Positions 19,301 through 25,390 of a DNA stretch of 64,000 nt are shown here, one piece after another (within the stretch, counting starts at the first letter, position 1; the number at the start of each line of letters is the position of its first letter). The notes under the pieces are model-generated. The model saw only the letters and a list, made by a program, of their open reading frames with translations. It was not told the origin of the DNA and did not search any database. A program made the position numbers and the translations under genes. This DNA comes from Rhodovulum sp. MB263 (lineage in GTDB: Bacteria > Pseudomonadota > Alphaproteobacteria > Rhodobacterales > Rhodobacteraceae): contig NZ_CP020384.1 in assembly GCF_002073975.1 (NCBI RefSeq), positions 2,418,001 through 2,482,000 on the forward strand, given 5' to 3'.

Positions 19301-20084
19301 GGTCCTCGGGCGCATCCTCCGGGGCGAAGATGGTGAGCCGCCCCTTGACCCGGGGCTCGCCCTCGGTCGCAAGCGCCAGATCGGCCGCGAAATCGCTGAG
19401 CGGGCCATCGCCCTCGACCGTCAGCGCCAGCGGCGGCGCGCCGGGCAGCCCCGCGAGGCTCGACACGATGCCGCCCGCGCCTTCGGTCAGCGAGATGTCC
19501 AGCGACAGGGTCTGGCTGTCATTGGCATAGGCGGCCCGGATCGCGAAATCGCCCTCGGCATCGCTGCGGCGGGCCTCGATATCGGCCCGGCCAGCCCCGC
19601 CGGCAAGGCTCAGGGAACCGTCCAGCGCCAGCTCGGCTTCCTGGCCGATCAGGGCCTCGCCCAGGACCAGCCGTCCGGTCTTCACCCTGCCGATATCGAT
19701 CGAGACCGGCAGATCGGGCAGCGCGAAAGGCGTGGCCTCGGATTGCTCGACGCTGGCGCCCTCGCCCCTGGGCAGGCGCGGCAGCAGGATCTCGTCGGCC
19801 GACAGCTCATCGACCTTGACCTCGCCGCGCAGAAGGGCGGCGCGCGACCAGTCGAGCACGGCGCCGCGCACCGTCAGCCAGACGCCGTCCTCATCGGCGA
19901 TGGTCAGCTCCTTCAGCGTCGCGCGCGAGGACAGCGCGCCCTCGAACCCCTCGATCCGGATCTCGCGTCCGGCCGAGGACAGACGGTCCTCGAGAAAGCG
20001 CACCAGCGCGCCGCGATCGTCCTCCTGGGCGGCCAGCGGCAGCGCGGTGAGGAGAAGCAGAAGAAAACCGAAAACTGCGCGCAT
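16386..20084 (-). CDS. tamB: Translocation and assembly module subunit TamB (DUF490)
   Basis: 1232 residues. The N-terminus (MRAVFGFLLLLLTALPLAAQ) is a signal/anchor. Then comes the long repetitive beta-rich AsmA/TamB body (many GxLxLxGxIxGP-type strands), ending in the conserved DUF490 C-terminus (VRGRGIDAELGGRLRLGG, FTLDEGQVSLTGSFDPRLYF, SRILFGRGLDTLSPLQAAELA, final GIFYERDY). TamB is an inner-membrane protein spanning the periplasm that works with TamA in outer-membrane protein insertion and phospholipid transport. Its ATG overlaps the tamA stop (ATGA at 20084), the expected operon arrangement. A very long open frame on the opposite strand is a GC-skew shadow. Confidence 0.95.
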   Translation of the reverse strand: MRAVFGFLLLLLTALPLAAQEDDRGALVRFLEDRLSSAGREIRIEGFEGALSSRATLKELTIADEDGVWLTVRGAVLDWSRAALLRGEVKVDELSADEILLPRLPRGEGASVEQSEATPFALPDLPVSIDIGRVKTGRLVLGEALIGQEAELALDGSLSLAGGAGRADIEARRSDAEGDFAIRAAYANDSQTLSLDISLTEGAGGIVSSLAGLPGAPPLALTVEGDGPLSDFAADLALATEGEPRVKGRLTIFAPEDAPEDRAFAATLSGDLGPLVAESLRPFFGDTSELAVEGTRGADSRLQISRLEVGTGALQLGGTLALAPSGLPEKVDLSGRISGPVVLPVSGGETRLDGATLRARFDAATGEAWQAEIALDGLTSGPLTLAHADLTGTGTIRPEAPALEADLVFRATGLDHADPALARALGALAEGRVQLVWQAGTPLRLSDLQVAAGDARLTARGTLGAVADGLPFDGEIGAALGDLSRFGALAGRALGGAAKADLSGHYRLLDGIFDLSLAAETTDLKTGTPRLDPLLAGAGLVQLSAARGPEGTVLKALHVETPGLRLDGQGDLSSAAGGLILTGQVPDLALVDPKLTGPGKLDTAFGWEAGGRLRLDRFEATAAGAEIAAEGALTPGDPTLPAEGKVTLSAPKLSVFSGLAGRRLSGSLDATLSGQGAVKGDFDATLSAEGQGLAIGLAQIDRLIGGKTTIAAEGARKAGALSVGRLDIATPRLTVKAEDRAGDGTLDLAARLSDLALLVEGFPGPVALRGKARPDGANWRLTLDATGPSGTTAAIAGTLARDASSADLGLKGRAPLSLANPFIEPRSLDGVASYDLTLKGPLGLSSLSGRATTAGARLSAPTLGAALTDIGGRVDLAGGRARLDLSGRLGGGQVAVTGPITLSGAFPAELAIRLSRARLLDPTLYESIVDGTVTVTGPLTGGARIAGRLDIGRTEITVPSTGLGGGGELPEIDHRGTPAAVQATLRRAGLVATEGGGGGGRPYPLDLTVNAPSQVFVRGRGIDAELGGRLRLGGSTADVVASGQFELIRGRLDILAQRFTLDEGQVSLTGSFDPRLYFVAATQSGDVTARIVVEGPASAPEIKFSSEPELPQEEVVSRILFGRGLDTLSPLQAAELASAVATLMGKGGQGILGSLRGATGLDDLDVNSTEEGGTELSAGKYLSDKIYSQVTVNQKGQSEINLNLDVSPYVTLKGHAGAEGDTGIGIFYERDY

Positions 20085-21883
20085 CAGAAAGCCTGCCCGA
20101 TACCGATATAGATCTGAACCCCGTCGCCGGTATCGCCATCGACCGGCGCCGCGACATCGAAGCGGATCGGGCCGATCCCGGTATTATAGCGCAGCCCCAG
20201 CCCGGCGCCCGACTGCCAGTCGCCATCCGAGACCCAGGAATCGGGCCCGACAAACCCCGCATCATAGAAGGCCACCATCTGGATCGCGCGGGTGACGCCG
20301 ACCCGCGCCTCGCCCGACAGCCCGATGAAGGACCGCCCGCCGATCCGGTCGCCATTCGGCAGATCGACCGCGAGCGACTGGTAGGGCTGGCCGCGCACGG
20401 TGCCGCCGCCGCCCGAGAAGAACAGAAGCGCGGGCGGCACGCCATCGCTCGCGGCGCCGACCACCGAGCCGATCTGCGCCCGCCCTGCCAGCACCAGACG
20501 GCTGCCGAGCTGCTGATAGATGCGGCCATCTGCCTTGATCAGCGCCCCGCTTTCGGCCGCGCCCCCGAGGCCCAGAAGTGGGGTCACGCTGCCGTCGAGA
20601 TAGAAGCCGCTATGGGCGTCGAGCGCATTGTCGCGACGGTCCCAGGTCAGGCTGACGGGGAAGGTCAGATGGGTCATCTGCCGGTCGCCGAGATCGTCGC
20701 TGACATCGGCATAACGCAGCAGAATACCGGCCTCGCCCTTGAGGTCGGAAGAGAACACCCGGGTCAGCCCGCCGCCGATCCGGGCGTTGGTCTCGGTATA
20801 GTCGGGCTCGTCCAGATCCTCGATGCCGCCCAGCAGGTACAGCCCGGTATCGGCATCGATCACCGCGGGCCGGTCGAAGCGGGCCGAGAGCGACAGGTCC
20901 TCGCCGCCGTCATCTTGCCCGCCGATGCCTGCGACCTCGAAGTCGAAGCGCAGGCGCTCGGCCCCGCCCATGAGGTTCCGGTGCATCCAGAAGCCCGAGA
21001 CGGCGGCCCCCTCGAGCGAAGAGAACTCGACCCCCGCCCCGAGGCGTCGCTTCTTCTGGTCGACCACCTCGAGCCCGATATCCATGCTGTTGCCCGGGCC
21101 GAGGGTTTCGGCCTCGCTCAGCCGGACCGAGCGAAAGGCCCCTGTCCGGCGCAACCGCTCGGCGCCTCTGTCCAGCGCCTCCGGATCGAAAGGCTCGCCC
21201 ATCGGCAGCCCCGAAATCGCCCGCAACCTTTCTTCACGCACGCCCGACCCCGAGGCGATGACGAGATCGCCGAAGCGGACAGCCGGACCGGGATCGAGCC
21301 GCAGACGGGCGGCAAGCGTCGCGTCGGGATGATCGGCGATCAGGCTCTGCCCCGCGACCTTCGCCTTGGCATGGCTGGCCGCGCGCCAGCCATCGACGCC
21401 CGCCGTCGCGGCGGCGCGCACGGTCGCGGCCTCGGCGGGCTTGCCGGGGGCAAAGTCCTCGGGCAGCTCGGTGCCGGGGGCCAGCGGTTCGATCCGGGCC
21501 TCGGAGAAGGCGAAGGGCCGTCCCGGCGCGACCCGGATCTCGACCCGGCCGATCCGCGCCGGCACCGACAGGGGCGACAGATCGGCCGCCTCGCGCCCGT
21601 CAAGGGTGACATGCACTTCGGGGCCGTAATAGCCGCGGGCGTAAAGCACGCCGACCAGACGGGCGTAATCGGCGCGGGCGGCGGCGAAGATGTCCTGCGC
21701 ACTGGCATCCGAAGCGCGCGCGGCCTCGAGAGTCAGCGCCGAGGCTTCCAGGGCCTGGCGCAGGTCATCCGAGGCGCCGGGCGCGCTCAGAACGGCCTCG
21801 GTGGCTGCGGCCGGACGCGGGCCGGACGCGAGGACAAGCGCCGTCAGGACGGCCAGTGCGGGAAAGAATCTCGTATCGGTCAC
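20084..21883 (-). CDS. tamA: Translocation and assembly module subunit TamA (Omp85/BamA family)
   Basis: 599 residues: a signal peptide (about 1-27), a POTRA region (about 30-270; e.g. RIGRVEIRVAPGRPFAFSEARIEPL and RLRLDPGPAVRFGDLVIASGSGV) and a C-terminal Omp85 barrel with alternating strands (LGAGVEFSSLEGAAVSGFW, FFSGGGGTVRGQPYQSL with the G-x-x-x-V-R-G-Y/F-like loop, GLGLRYNTGIGPIRFDVA) ending in Phe as outer-membrane barrels usually do. It inserts autotransporter-type and other barrels with TamB. tamB overlaps its stop. The gene follows pucC on the same strand 122 bases later; I see a hairpin in that gap. Confidence 0.95.
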   Translation of the reverse strand: MTDTRFFPALAVLTALVLASGPRPAAATEAVLSAPGASDDLRQALEASALTLEAARASDASAQDIFAAARADYARLVGVLYARGYYGPEVHVTLDGREAADLSPLSVPARIGRVEIRVAPGRPFAFSEARIEPLAPGTELPEDFAPGKPAEAATVRAAATAGVDGWRAASHAKAKVAGQSLIADHPDATLAARLRLDPGPAVRFGDLVIASGSGVREERLRAISGLPMGEPFDPEALDRGAERLRRTGAFRSVRLSEAETLGPGNSMDIGLEVVDQKKRRLGAGVEFSSLEGAAVSGFWMHRNLMGGAERLRFDFEVAGIGGQDDGGEDLSLSARFDRPAVIDADTGLYLLGGIEDLDEPDYTETNARIGGGLTRVFSSDLKGEAGILLRYADVSDDLGDRQMTHLTFPVSLTWDRRDNALDAHSGFYLDGSVTPLLGLGGAAESGALIKADGRIYQQLGSRLVLAGRAQIGSVVGAASDGVPPALLFFSGGGGTVRGQPYQSLAVDLPNGDRIGGRSFIGLSGEARVGVTRAIQMVAFYDAGFVGPDSWVSDGDWQSGAGLGLRYNTGIGPIRFDVAAPVDGDTGDGVQIYIGIGQAF

Positions 21884-22005: not shown

Positions 22006-23415
22006 TCAGTCGGGCGCGTTCTCGATGCCGAAGGCGCCGCTGCGCATCAGCCGGTAGCCGACGATGACGGTCACCACCAGCAGCACCAGTTCGATGGCAT
22101 AGACGAAGAAATAGGGCGTCGCCGCGCCATAGAGATCGCCGATGGGCGAATGCAGCACCGCATCGCGGAACACGCCCCCAAGCGCGATCCCGGCCCCGGC
22201 CGAGCTTGCCTGCACCGCGCCCCAGGCCCCGAGCGCCAATCCGACCTGGGATCTGGGCGCCGAGCGCATCGTGGCGGTCAGCGTGCCATGGCTGAAGAGC
22301 CCCGCACCGAAGCCCGCCAGCATCGTGCCGAAGACGAAGACCGGCTCGGATTGCAGGGTCGCCGAGAAGGTGATGATGGCGAAGGCCGGAAGCCCCACCA
22401 CCGCGCCCCAGCCTGCCATCGCCATCGGGTCGTACCCCCGCGACAGCACGCGCGAGGCCCAGGCGAAGCCCACCAGCGTGCCGCCCGCGACAGAGGCGGT
22501 CAGCTTGGTGGTCGCGGCAACCGACATCTCGAGCACCTGGCCGCCGAAGGGTTCCAGCAGCACGTCCGAGAGGCCGAAGCCCAGCGTGCCGAGCCCGATC
22601 ACCCATAGCAGCCTGCGGGCATTGGGCCCGCGCGTGAACAGCCCCCAGGCCTCGCGGAAGCTCGGGTCGGGTTCGGCCTCGGGTTTCGGCATGGCGCGGG
22701 TGCGGTCGCGCGCCTCCATCTTCCAAAGCGCGATGACGTTGAACACCATGGTCGCAACCGCGGCGCCCTGGATCACCTTGATCAGCTTGGCATGGTAGAA
22801 ATTCTCAAGCCAGATCCCGAACAGGAGTGCGCTGACGATCATGCCGACCAGCAGCATGACATACATCAGCCCCACCACGTTGGGCTGGTCCTCGCGCGGC
22901 GCGAGGTCGGTGGCCAGGGCCAGACCCACGGTCTGCACCGTATGCACACCCGCGCCGACCAGCAGGAACGAGACCGCGGCCGACAGGATGCCGATCCATT
23001 CCGGCGCGCCTGCGGCACTTCCCTGGCCGGACAGCACGATCAGCGCGAAGGGCATGATGGCGAAGCCGCCCCATTGCAGCAGCGTGCCCTTCCAGATGTA
23101 GGGCACCCGTCGCCAGCCCAGCGCCGAGCGGTGGGTATCGGATTTGAAGCCGATCAGCGCGCGGAAGGGCGCGAACAGAAGCGGCAGGGAAATCATGATG
23201 CCGACGATGGAGGCCGGCACGTCGAGTTCGACGATCATCACCCGGTTCAGGGTGCCGACAAGCAGCACCATCGCCATGCCGACTGAGACCTGGAACATCG
23301 ACAGCCGCAACAGGCGGCTGAGGGGCAGGTTTTCGCTGGCGGCTTCTGCAAAGGGGAGGAATCGAGGCCCGACAGTGGCGATGCGGTTGATCGCCATCTT
23401 GCTCAGTCGATTCAT
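22006..23415 (-). CDS. pucC: PucC, light-harvesting complex 2 assembly / BChl delivery protein
   Basis: 469-residue polytopic protein of the BCD/PucC subgroup of the major facilitator superfamily, with about twelve hydrophobic segments. Family landmarks are LPLSRLLRLSMFQVSVGMAMVLLVGTLNRVMIVEL near the N-terminus, FAPFRALIGFKSDTHRSALGWRRVPYIWKGT in the loop after TM3, and GLSDVLLEPFGGQVLEMSV in the middle. PucC is needed for stable LH2 formation in the intracytoplasmic membrane and is thought to shepherd or deliver bacteriochlorophyll. The ATG at 23415 (MNRLSKMAINRIATVGPRFLPF) follows GGAGTG; an in-frame ATG ten codons earlier is possible. The gene is third in pucBAC, separated from pucA by a strong hairpin. 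Confidence 0.96.
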   Translation of the reverse strand: MNRLSKMAINRIATVGPRFLPFAEAASENLPLSRLLRLSMFQVSVGMAMVLLVGTLNRVMIVELDVPASIVGIMISLPLLFAPFRALIGFKSDTHRSALGWRRVPYIWKGTLLQWGGFAIMPFALIVLSGQGSAAGAPEWIGILSAAVSFLLVGAGVHTVQTVGLALATDLAPREDQPNVVGLMYVMLLVGMIVSALLFGIWLENFYHAKLIKVIQGAAVATMVFNVIALWKMEARDRTRAMPKPEAEPDPSFREAWGLFTRGPNARRLLWVIGLGTLGFGLSDVLLEPFGGQVLEMSVAATTKLTASVAGGTLVGFAWASRVLSRGYDPMAMAGWGAVVGLPAFAIITFSATLQSEPVFVFGTMLAGFGAGLFSHGTLTATMRSAPRSQVGLALGAWGAVQASSAGAGIALGGVFRDAVLHSPIGDLYGAATPYFFVYAIELVLLVVTVIVGYRLMRSGAFGIENAPD

Positions 23416-23520
23416 GCGGTCACACTCCGACACGCGGCCCGACACAGGCGGCCCGTGTCCTCTTGCCCGCAGGGGCGCGTTTCCGGTTGGTTCGGAACGT
23501 CACCGTCCCGAAGGCACGAA

Positions 23521-23573: not shown

Positions 23574-23765
23574 TTACGAGAGCAGCGTGGTGGCGTTGGA
23601 GACCAGCGACGCGGCTTCGAACGAGCCAGCGTAGTAGTCACCCATCCAGCCGGTGGTCAGAACCAGCATCAGGTGCACCAGGAAGGAAGCGATGGCGCAG
23701 GCAACCAGGAAGAGCGGGATACCAACGGTGGGCTTAACGACGAGCCACATTTTCGCGTTGTTCAT
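23574..23765 (-). CDS. pucA: LH2 antenna alpha polypeptide
   Basis: 63 residues with one membrane helix. The N-terminus MNNAKMWLVVKPTVGIPLFL is typical of LH2 alpha chains, whose N-terminal formyl-Met region binds B800 bacteriochlorophyll. His31 in SFLVHLML is the expected B850 magnesium ligand. Tyr44 and Tyr45 (GDYY) occupy the positions whose hydrogen bonds to the B850 acetyl groups give 850-nm absorption. A 15-residue C-terminal tail follows the helix (SFEAASLVSNATTLLS). The gene follows pucB after 21 bases. Transcription should be set by the tandem PpsR/CrtJ sites upstream of pucB. Confidence 0.98.
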   Translation of the reverse strand: MNNAKMWLVVKPTVGIPLFLVACAIASFLVHLMLVLTTGWMGDYYAGSFEAASLVSNATTLLS

Positions 23766-23786: not shown

Positions 23787-23942
23787 TTAGCCGAGCCACG
23801 GGGTGGCGATGGCAGCCAGGAAGTGGGCGAACAGCGCGATCGCACCAAACACGCGGGTGCCGTCGATCAGTTGCTTATGCACTTCTTCGGCTTCGGCAAG
23901 GGTCAGGCCGGTCGGCCAGACTTTGTCCATATCGTCAGTCAT
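23787..23942 (-). CDS. pucB: LH2 antenna beta polypeptide
   Basis: 51 residues, first gene of pucBAC. The polar N-terminus ([25 protein letters not shown]) and the single helix ([21 protein letters not shown]) are typical of LH2 beta chains. His40 in ALFAH is the B850 ligand; His22 and Arg30 are also in conserved positions near the B800 site. The ATG at 23942 follows GGGGAGA. The 5' leader from the candidate promoter is about 130 bases. A 51-residue product pairs with the alpha chain to form the ring subunit in the photosynthetic membrane. Confidence 0.98.
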
Positions 23943-24077: not shown

Positions 24078-24095
24078 TGTCACAAGCGATTGACG
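24078..24095 (-). promoter_or_regulatory. PpsR/CrtJ-like site 2 (one mismatch)
   Basis: TGT-N12-ACG on the plus strand, one base from the TGT-N12-ACA consensus of the redox/light repressor PpsR (CrtJ). It lies seven bases from a perfect copy, close to the eight-base spacing seen where two CrtJ tetramer sites cooperate. Confidence 0.55.
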
Positions 24096-24102
24096 TTGGC
24101 AA

Positions 24103-24120
24103 TGTCAACGCAGCCTGACA
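24103..24120 (-). promoter_or_regulatory. PpsR/CrtJ site 1 overlapping the puc -35 element
   Basis: Perfect TGT-N12-ACA. Read on the minus strand, its distal half overlaps a consensus -35 hexamer TTGACA at 24104-24109, so a bound repressor would block sigma-70 access. PpsR/CrtJ repression of puc under oxygen and light is established in Rhodobacter. The -10 is not obvious (TTGTGA at 18-base spacing is the best choice). Confidence 0.75.
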
Positions 24121-24333
24121 TGCCCCCAGAATCGTGCGACATATCGAACCCTCTTGACAACGCGTCGCAGCCCCTGCGGCGCCCCGTCCTGCGACCGTGC
24201 GGCCCATTGAAATCCGCACCTTGAGGTGGGGTAATATCAAAGCGCCCTACTGCAATTCGCCGTTCTCGTCGGGCACCGGACCGAGCCTGGCTCATGTCGT
24301 CGACGATCGCGGACGCAACAACCTGGAGGACCT

Positions 24334-24657
24334 ATGAAATATATCTGGGACGACTGGATGCCGAAGCTGTCCAGCAAGCAACGCCTGCTCACCGACGTCG
24401 CGGTCGAGGGCGAAGGCACCACCACGCCCTTCTCGGACGCGCTCGGCTTCAAATGCCTGTCCGAGAATCGCGCCTCGAAGACCGAGCTGATGACCGACAA
24501 TCCGACCCCGCTGTCGCGCCAGATGAACTGGCCCCTGCTGGGCGGCACGGGCGAAGGGCATGTCGAGCTGAAGACCAGCGACCCGACCCCGCTCTCGTCG
24601 CGCATGGGCTGGCCGCTGCTGTCCAAACGCGCCCATTACGGCGTCGCCGCGAAATAA
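24334..24657 (+). CDS. Unrecognised 107-residue protein with three 27-residue repeats, divergent from puc
   Basis: I do not recognise this protein. It is soluble, with no signal peptide or membrane helix, and has a tryptophan-rich start (MKYIWDDWMPKL). Three repeats of exactly 27 residues follow: the TP pairs fall at 31, 58 and 85, and each unit fits TP(L/F)S-x2-(M/L)-(G/N)-(W/F)-x-x-L, with flanking Glu at 51 and 78. Coding status is well supported: a strong GGAGG ribosome site six bases before the ATG and a textbook terminator 24 bases after the stop. A TAATAT at 24232-24237 may be its -10. It starts 391 bases from pucB on the opposite strand, so it shares the regulatory region of the LH2 operon. 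A role in antenna assembly or regulation is only inferred from position. Confidence 0.75.
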   Translation: MKYIWDDWMPKLSSKQRLLTDVAVEGEGTTTPFSDALGFKCLSENRASKTELMTDNPTPLSRQMNWPLLGGTGEGHVELKTSDPTPLSSRMGWPLLSKRAHYGVAAK

Positions 24658-24681
24658 TCCGCCCCCTGACGGATGCAGATA

Positions 24682-24709
24682 CGCTCGCGCCTCCCGCGCG
24701 GGCGTTTTT
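24682..24709 (+). terminator. Intrinsic terminator of the repeat-protein gene
   Basis: Nine-base arms (24682-24690 and 24696-24704, one G-U pair) around a five-base loop, followed by TTTTTCTTTT. It lies 24 bases past the stop at 24657. Confidence 0.92.
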
Positions 24710-24733
24710 CTTTTGATCTGGGCTTGAGACACC

Positions 24734-25390
24734 GAGCCAGCAGATGACGATTGCGGCGAGAGCGATGGCTGACAGGACCACCTTCGCGTAGCGGTCGTCG
24801 CGGGGTGCGATCCGGCGCCAGTCCTTCAGGCGACCGAACCGGATCCCGATCCGGCTGCGCCGCTTTTGGCGCCGCCTGTCATAGGTCACCGGCGTCCTGC
24901 GCTGTTTCCATCCGGGGGGGGGTGAGGGCCGGCAAGATCTGGTCCGGTGGATCAGATCAGCCCGGACCGGCGCGCATCTCTCTGCCTTTCAACCTGTCCC
25001 GGACCCCGTCGGCGTGATAGCCGCGATCCCCGAGCCGCCAGTCGACGGCCGGCACAGAGCCGCATGACGCCCGTGCGCCCACATGGTCGCTGACAGGGCC
25101 TGCCGACATGAAAAGCCCGACGGGGCCGTCCCTTCGCATCCGCAACAGCTTGCAGCCCGGTGTTCCGGCAAGCTTTGGTTCGCCCGATCAGGCGGTCACA
25201 TCCACCTTTTGGCGCCCGGGCTGGACGCCATTCGGTGAGCCTTCAGCTCCTCGCGCAGGCTCGCTCGAACGCATGGCCTTCGGCTGCTCATGTCGATCGA
25301 CACGGTCCGGCCCGCGCGATGCGGCCGATATTCGACAATTTTTCGAGAAAATGTACCGTTCCTGCCGGACCGGCGCCCGGTTTGCCGGGC
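24734..25390 (-). pseudogene. Decayed IS5-family (IS427-group-like) transposase
   Basis: Pieces of one transposase are spread over all three minus-strand frames in the right order. From N to C: a stretch with ELKAHRMASSPGAKR (about 25198-25240), LIGRTKACRNTGLQAVADAKGRP (about 25130-25190), VGLFMSAGPVSDHVGA and DWRLGDRGYHADGVRDRLKG (24957-25125), and the DDE-proximal end RIGIRFGRLKDWRRIAPRDDRYAKV with final AIVICWL at 24734. At least three frameshifts and a stop separate them, so it cannot make an active transposase. I could not find terminal inverted repeats or a target duplication. It lies between the puc-divergent gene and ndk and marks a past insertion next to the antenna locus. Confidence 0.8.

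Follow-up and report, generated by a model that had tools for sequence, protein, structure and literature searches.

LH2, one of the best-studied membrane complexes, has been described as a ring composed of alpha-beta pairs. In Rhodovulum sp. MB263 a small open reading frame lies divergent from the genes for these polypeptides, and the question raised by this locus is what its product is and whether it belongs to the antenna. The window, meaning the whole stretch of 64,000 nucleotides analysed here, had been read once before from its letters alone, and this sequence-only reading proposed an antenna-assembly, pigment-handling or regulatory factor. The link to the antenna is now strongly supported by puc linkage, but a regulatory role gained no support.

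The window gene and its repeats

The open reading frame was found at the place and on the strand assigned to it in the sequence-only reading, and its product has 107 residues and a mass of 11.9 kDa (Table 1). Compared with itself at an offset of 27 residues, the protein scored 84, against at most 45 in 2000 shuffles. The TP pairs begin at residues 31, 58 and 85 and are followed by (L/F)S-x2-(M/L)-(G/N)-(W/F)-x2-L, just as had been written. The claim of three exact 27-residue repeats holds for their spacing but not for their sequence; identities out of 27 residues are 13 between repeats 2 and 3, and 4 and 6 between repeat 1 and the others, in agreement with the description of repeats 2 and 3 as close and repeat 1 as diverged. 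All 16 rows of alignment A1, from which a second copy of genome G299 (L023) was omitted, keep the serines of the TPxS motifs (S34, S61 and S88) and the tryptophan in each of repeats 2 and 3.

The dN/dS values, calculated for the four closest copies, correspond to purifying selection and, together with the GGAGG site and the terminator-like site, indicate a real gene; both sites had been called correctly from the sequence. Hydropathy over 19 residues peaks at 0.13, so that the protein contains no hydrophobic stretch. AlphaFold2, run with 16 and 21 alignment rows, gave a mean pLDDT of 50 and pTM values of 0.15 and 0.14; the PLSxxM cores formed short helical turns, and the B protein described below had a helix at its C-terminus. 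These low-confidence models fit an extended binder and a failed prediction equally, and may merely mirror the shallow alignments. Directly behind the gene, at 24449-24889 on the minus strand, is a frame resembling a transposase remnant (DDE_Tnp_1_2, E 1.8e-4, below the cut-off).

Table 1 Positions in the window of the repeat gene, its parts, its control elements and its puc neighbours
Feature	Position	Strand	Evidence
Puc-linked repeat-protein gene, 107 residues, stop codon included	24334-24657	+	16/16 Rhodovulum genomes; dN/dS 0.19-0.25
N-terminal segment MKYIWDDWMPKLSSKQRL, residues 1-18	24334-24387	+	Alignment A1; replaces the relatives' ~100-residue domain
Repeat 1, residues 19-45, with TPFSD	24388-24468	+	T31, F33, S34, D35, G38 invariant (16 rows)
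Repeat 2, residues 46-72	24469-24549	+	S61, W66, L69 invariant (16 rows)
Repeat 3, residues 73-99	24550-24630	+	P86, L87, S88, G92, W93, L96 invariant (16 rows)
Ribosome-binding site GGAGG	24325-24329	+	GGAGG at most 20 bases before the start in 15/15 puc-linked copies
Promoter-like TTGA-N19-GGTAAT of the repeat gene	24207-24235	+	Kept in 14/15 puc-linked copies
PpsR/CrtJ-like site TGT-N12-ACA, shared control region	24103-24120	.	15/15 puc-linked copies
Terminator-like stem-loop, 10 pairs, then T-rich tail	24681-24705	+	1 found against a mean of 0.5 in shuffles
pucB (LH2 beta), divergent neighbour	23787-23942	-	PF00556, E 2.6e-9
pucA (LH2 alpha)	23574-23765	-	PF00556, E 7.6e-9
pucC	22006-23445	-	PF03209, E 3.4e-151
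Omp85 protein gene, next downstream of pucC	20084-21883		PF01103

The starts of pucB and of the repeat gene are 391 bases apart, as reported before for the control region that the two share. This region holds a PpsR/CrtJ-like site, TGT-N12-ACA. When the 15 intervals were aligned, the TTGA-N19-GGTAAT element was located 116-128 bases before the repeat gene, apart from the TGT-N12-ACA block near puc, and on account of this conserved promoter-like site of its own the repeat gene seems to be a separate transcription unit sharing a control region with puc. No sigma-70-type promoter was detected in the window by a generic scan. The Omp85 gene directly follows pucC, and hence no repeat gene lies behind pucC in the window. 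At 24090-24120, TTGAC-N9-GTCAA forms a perfect inverted repeat that shares bases with the PpsR-like site, and here the sequence TTGACG(T/A)TGGCAATGTCAA is retained in most of the 15 aligned species. A TGCGAC element was not found in the puf region of the same genome.

Distribution and paralogs in Rhodovulum

Matches to the window protein were present in all 16 Rhodovulum genomes, and a protein 88% identical to it is encoded on contigs of Rhodovulum visakhapatnamense and R. kholense. The LHC search returned four matches from each of the 16 genomes, corresponding to two pairs, one of which is pucBA. Coordinates place the puc-linked copy next to pucB, in divergent orientation, in 15 genomes; in the exception, G298, the repeat gene is on another contig and the pucBA region is without a copy.

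Further copies of the repeat occur in the genus away from puc and puf. These paralogs carry 2-5 repeats, and two more kinds were read, B and D. Repeats number up to five in B proteins, which also share a conserved C-terminal segment near SKFIRQIVTGEVQK (alignment A2, 21 rows; L023, L028, L047, L053, the stop-containing L055 frame and repeat fetches of the same genes were omitted). In D proteins there are two repeats, and the N-terminal stretch resembles that of the puc-linked copy (alignment A3, 6 of 8 copies). D copies are situated near Calvin-cycle genes or pntAB and many B copies near dnaG, the names of these neighbours being read from the sequence with no library match. No PpsR-like site was found within 300 bases of any of 23 B and 6 D copies.

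Several minor features of the paralog loci were recorded. Around the D copies in L036, L037, L056, L058, L059 and L060, epimerase, FBPase, aldolase, PGK, phosphoglycolate phosphatase or pntAB were read from the sequence, and the D paralogs in L037 and L057 are about 8 kb away from the puc-linked copy. B paralogs near dnaG have a strongly conserved leader right before the ATG, GGTGGACAGGATCAACGTAGGTGGACC, with two copies of GGTGGAC, and further upstream GACGCGGCGAAAA with CTTG after it; this leader is at L035:8073-8120 and at the same place in L024, L025, L026, L052, L053, L054 and others. The leader region can be read as a promoter plus a possible RNA-level control element. In three B paralogs the main repeats are preceded by a second type of array, built of 10-residue units TNPQVETKTF (L031:1393-1797, L052:6842-7219 and L054:6432-6803).

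Identification of relatives outside Rhodovulum

Library searches with the window protein gave no match in Pfam at E values up to 1, PF00556 included, no match in NCBIfam and no relative in the PDB. Searches of the PDB by sequence and with profiles A1, A2, A4 and A5 reached E values of 0.27 (extended synaptotagmin) and 0.047 (SUMO) at best, which were judged to be chance. Weak Pfam matches among 21 B paralogs, to TPP_enzyme_M_2 in six (best 5e-4), to a BcsR-like family in six (best 0.051) and to GLOD4_N in five (best 0.027), were set aside because the functions are unrelated. Full-length Rhodovulum queries of 295 and 394 family genomes likewise found nothing outside Rhodovulum. The family was accordingly first taken to be confined to the genus, a view that was overturned when a profile of repeat pairs found matches elsewhere in the class; the full-length queries had been too specific. 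The earlier statement that the protein matches no family is therefore right for Pfam and NCBIfam, but the protein does have relatives.

The repeat-pair profile, A4, was built from 56 of 83 repeat pairs picked by a motif that requires Ser, so that an invariant Ser within A4 is circular. Among 385 genomes of the class, 12 gave a match: the window's own genome, three weak cases and eight genomes with long open frames. The eight frames, that of G615 among them, carry the same repeat arrays behind an N-terminal domain; the relatives from other families of the class are proteins of about 183-265 residues made of this domain and the repeats. The three weak cases (G726, G807 and G906) are without LHC and were judged to be chance; the match in G726 covers 17 positions (E 0.009), the frame in G807 is DNA-ligase-like and the match in G906 contains a stop codon. 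Weak matches from the order search (G052, G088, G353, G474, G016 and G330) were rejected as short frames or frames with stops, two of them, whose surroundings were read, being frames of 47 and 52 residues with no array. Searched with NCBIfam, ten relatives gave a single match, at 0.13.

The LHC search of the same 385 genomes found 27 above the cut-off. Puc-type pairs were judged by the number and spacing of hits and by the motif WPTGLT or WPSGLT, which was unmatched in L126 and L127; 11 LH2-type genomes were counted, the window's own excluded. By search alone, 8 of these 11 had a repeat match, against 3 of the 373 others, all weak (Fisher p 2.4e-12). Reading of the puc regions added G678 and G735, which brings the repeat protein to 10 of the 11; the remaining genome, G715, has no repeat gene. 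The check suggested in the sequence-only reading, whether homologues lie beside puc, came out clearly in favour of an antenna link: 15 of the 16 Rhodovulum copies adjoin pucB, and all eight convincing matches outside Rhodovulum have an LHC pair no more than about 1 kb away. The Rhodovulum paralogs, by contrast, adjoin neither puc nor puf. Homologues scattered through non-phototrophs, named in the sequence-only reading as grounds for doubt, were not seen: of the 358 class genomes with no LHC match above the cut-off, only three gave matches, which are weak and unlike members of the family.

In 7 of the 10 class genomes the gene order is pucBA, repeat gene, pucC, two of the seven having a further puc pair before pucC. 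The repeat gene is divergent from pucB in G683, as in Rhodovulum, and convergent in G686; in G652 it comes after pucBA, and no match to the pucC motif was obtained there. In G912 and G735 the repeat gene is between two puc pairs (L099:6952-7734 and L104:6939-7628), and the G735 protein contains 12-residue units, SKRHIFGEPKLN, which resemble LH2-gamma units (SGEPLI).

Profile A7 (19 of 21 rows; the two longest, L110 and L126, omitted) found one match, at puc, in each of nine repeat-positive class genomes. Among 25 genomes in which one LHC pair was found and which were assumed to be LH1-only, the repeat part had no match; G686, a further genome with one pair, turned out to be puc-type and was counted as such. 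The single matches at puc and the absence from all 25 single-pair genomes indicate that the family follows LH2 and not LH1.

Repeat proteins of Rhodobacteraceae and the pucDE position

LHC genes were found in 54 of 139 Rhodobacteraceae genomes, taken one per genus. Besides Rhodovulum, 17 of these have a second or puc-type LHC place, G083 being less surely LH2-type because it has a single hit, and a repeat-family protein is encoded in 13 of the 17. These genes were missed with A4 and were found only with the relatives' profile. In 12 genomes a gene that combines the N-terminal domain with repeated segments such as MANWPIPLLSKRKP is downstream of puc, and in 10 of these 12 regions the pucC motif was matched just before it (alignment A6, 11 of 12 rows; L123, cut by a contig end, omitted). 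In the thirteenth, G022, the match is on another contig. The whole genomes of G051, G091, G111 and G083 contain no repeat-family gene.

Two papers place pucDE of R. capsulatus in the puc operon with pucB, pucA and pucC and describe these genes as regulated together (PMC5359404, where pudCE is printed; PMC4634722), and a third names pucBACDE as the typical cluster (PMC9231093). The domain-plus-repeat genes of the 12 Rhodobacteraceae occupy the pucDE place, the comparison being of gene position alone. The Rhodovulum gene differs from them in being divergent from pucB rather than behind pucC, where an Omp85 gene is found, and in having no N-terminal domain.

A search of the literature found no description of the gene or of such a family, the available portions of the Rhodovulum papers PMC3738892, PMC9230146 and PMC7343832 included; most subscription journals fell outside this search, so older puc papers on R. 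sulfidophilum (1997) or R. capsulatus may mention it.

The Rhodovulum protein has no N-terminal domain

The window protein is an array of the repeat PxPLSxxxG(W/L)xxLS, as found in the puc-linked family. Aligned with hhalign, the puc-linked Rhodovulum set and the class relatives reached 97.7% (score 77.3; 100 column shuffles gave at most 20.8 and the reversed profile 10.9), and the B set and the class relatives 98.7% (score 103). Class relatives and the Rhodobacteraceae set aligned across the N-terminal domain at 99.5%. Between the Rhodobacteraceae set and Rhodovulum the values were 89.8% for B and only 35.5% for the puc-linked set, the latter above all 100 shuffles. A first unit of 25 residues occurs in class relatives, and 5 of the 10 have its Asp, within PLSD; this residue is the mark of repeat 1 in the window protein, where it is D35 and is kept in all 16 rows.

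Within the Rhodovulum family, alignment to the relatives' profile starts no earlier than position 92, and the profile's one other match, to positions 39-82 (E 0.084), is to an unrelated frame of G299. The N-terminal domain is thus missing in Rhodovulum, and on these alignments the Rhodovulum protein is a truncated variant, or short form, of the puc-linked family without the domain of about 100 residues. In the relatives (L101, L094, L095, L097 and others) this domain has no Pfam match above the cut-off, the best being YflT at 0.1.

Comparison with LH2-gamma and other antenna proteins

The gamma polypeptide of LH2 in Rhodopseudomonas palustris (RPA1495; PDB 7zcu, 7zdi, 7ze3 and 7ze8) is described in PMC9618040 as a protein of about 10 kDa whose six repeats form an extended ribbon outside the ring near the cytoplasmic side, with one Ser per repeat ligating the Mg of an extra bacteriochlorophyll. 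The same paper reports BLASTp matches to gamma in Rhodopseudomonas only and says that LH2 of Rba. sphaeroides is without a gamma-subunit. The window protein is likewise a small, LH2-linked repeat polypeptide with no transmembrane stretch and has one invariant Ser per repeat, at a different offset from the core; a G-x-P-L-(L/I) core is present in most units. The two differ in that gamma has six 16-residue units and the window protein three of 27 (the Rhodovulum period is 26-27), and in that binding of LH2 and bacteriochlorophyll is known for gamma only.

Gamma was compared as chain 7zcu_S. The ten class relatives scored a mean of 45.9 against it, compared with 27.3 for period-keeping shuffles (1/200 as good); the best, from G833, scored 85 (0/200) over about 90 residues with one gap. 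Residue shuffles did as well in 0 of 500 trials for three of the ten relatives and in 1 to 77 for the others. When 17 genomes of the G735 family were searched with gamma, the sole match was the G833 protein (E 0.0065), and hhalign of the relatives with gamma gave 14.9%. The window protein itself has no direct similarity to gamma (64/200 period-keeping shuffles were as good, and 301/1000); nor does the Rhodobacteraceae set (37/200 shuffles; hhalign 0.1%), and the B set has little (7/200). Since several relatives align with gamma better than shuffles do and the window protein does not, a link to gamma would run through intermediates. Core spacing in class relatives is most often 16 (15 of 32), the gamma value, counted with a pattern that was written after the sequences had been seen. 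The relatives' similarity to gamma may also reflect convergence of low-complexity repeats.

LH1-gamma of Blastochloris viridis, according to PMC10214105, is an extra small polypeptide outside an antenna ring, as the window protein would be; it packs as single units between LH1 beta polypeptides, one per subunit, whereas the window protein is a chain of repeats. PucC/LhaA (PF03209) has the same neighbourhood and, according to PMC4949548, a role in LH assembly, but is a large membrane transporter-like protein unrelated in sequence to the window protein. The LHC alpha and beta polypeptides (PF00556) differ from the window protein, which has neither a match to that family nor a hydrophobic stretch.

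Proposed function and alternatives

The window gene is probably the Rhodovulum form of a puc-linked LH2 family, and its product a flexible, multivalent belt that binds LH2 in the manner of the gamma ribbon. Such a protein would have little fold of its own. Each repeat (PTPLSxxMGWPLLS plus linker) would dock on one alpha-beta unit of LH2, probably at the cytoplasmic face, so that a single chain could span about three neighbouring units and stabilise or tune the ring, as the LH2-gamma ribbon does in Rps. palustris. More speculatively, the invariant Ser of each repeat may bind, and ligate, an extra bacteriochlorophyll, as the gamma serines do. Against a belt stand the absence of direct similarity between the window protein and gamma, the low hhalign value of the relatives with gamma, the period of 26-27 instead of 16 and the low value for the Rhodobacteraceae set with the puc-linked set. 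LH2 also occurs without such a gene in G715, G051, G091, G111 and, less surely LH2-type, G083, and in Rhodovulum the paralogs are found at a distance from puc and puf and without a PpsR-like site.

The same repeats might instead serve assembly, holding free PucB and PucA or bacteriochlorophyll near PucC and then leaving, so that the protein would not be a stable part of the complex. We consider this unlikely, though the position of the relatives' genes, between pucBA and pucC or downstream of pucC, agrees with it, PucC being an LH2 assembly factor according to PMC4949548, as does the statement in PMC9618040 that Rba. sphaeroides LH2 has no gamma-subunit. Several relatives, however, resemble gamma, a stable component of the ring, and the range of 2 to 5 repeats among Rhodovulum paralogs is no less compatible with a belt whose length varies. 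The paralogs also bear on a reading in which the partner is something other than LH2 (for example LH1, PucC, or a membrane or metabolic protein), linkage to puc stems solely from shared expression and the paralogs serve other partners. The proximity of D copies to Calvin-cycle genes or pntAB and of many B copies to dnaG, as read from the sequence, would suit such a reading, as would the lack of PpsR-like sites within 300 bases of the 23 B and 6 D copies; the single match at puc in nine class genomes and the absence of the repeats from all 25 single-pair genomes make it improbable.

It is highly improbable that the protein is a regulatory or stress protein in which a YflT-like N-terminal domain of the relatives is the active part and the repeats a linker. 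YflT was matched in two of seven relatives, at E values of 0.1 and 0.27, far below the cut-off, and the control region shared with puc does hold a PpsR-like site, but the window protein has no Pfam match. Rhodovulum, moreover, lost the N-terminal domain and kept the repeats, which indicates that the repeats carry the function, and the domain alone was matched in 3 of the 25 single-pair genomes (G868, G918 and G932), which indicates that it is not the antenna-specific part.

Significance of a proposed LH2-binding belt

A repeat protein of one family is encoded in 23 of the 28 LH2-type genomes counted outside Rhodovulum and in all 16 Rhodovulum genomes, whereas PMC9618040 reports gamma from Rhodopseudomonas only. 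It is possible, although on balance doubtful, that the pigment-binding gamma belt, rather than being peculiar to Rhodopseudomonas, is one member of a group of repeat polypeptides whose genes accompany those of most alphaproteobacterial LH2 antennas, pucDE included, and which have been overlooked because they are lost on purification. Rhodovulum would then have reduced the protein to its repeats and expanded it into a set of chains, each with 2-5 repeats, which enclose different arcs of LH2, and perhaps of LH1, and bring in extra bacteriochlorophylls. Should the protein belong to native LH2, the numbers of pigments, the 800/850 ratio and models of energy transfer would have to be reconsidered for many species, and pucDE would gain a molecular meaning. 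A candidate member of the family is rpa3011 of Rps. palustris, a hypothetical gene beside pucBAd for which PMC6879726 reports elevated levels under low light in 14 or more of 17 strains.
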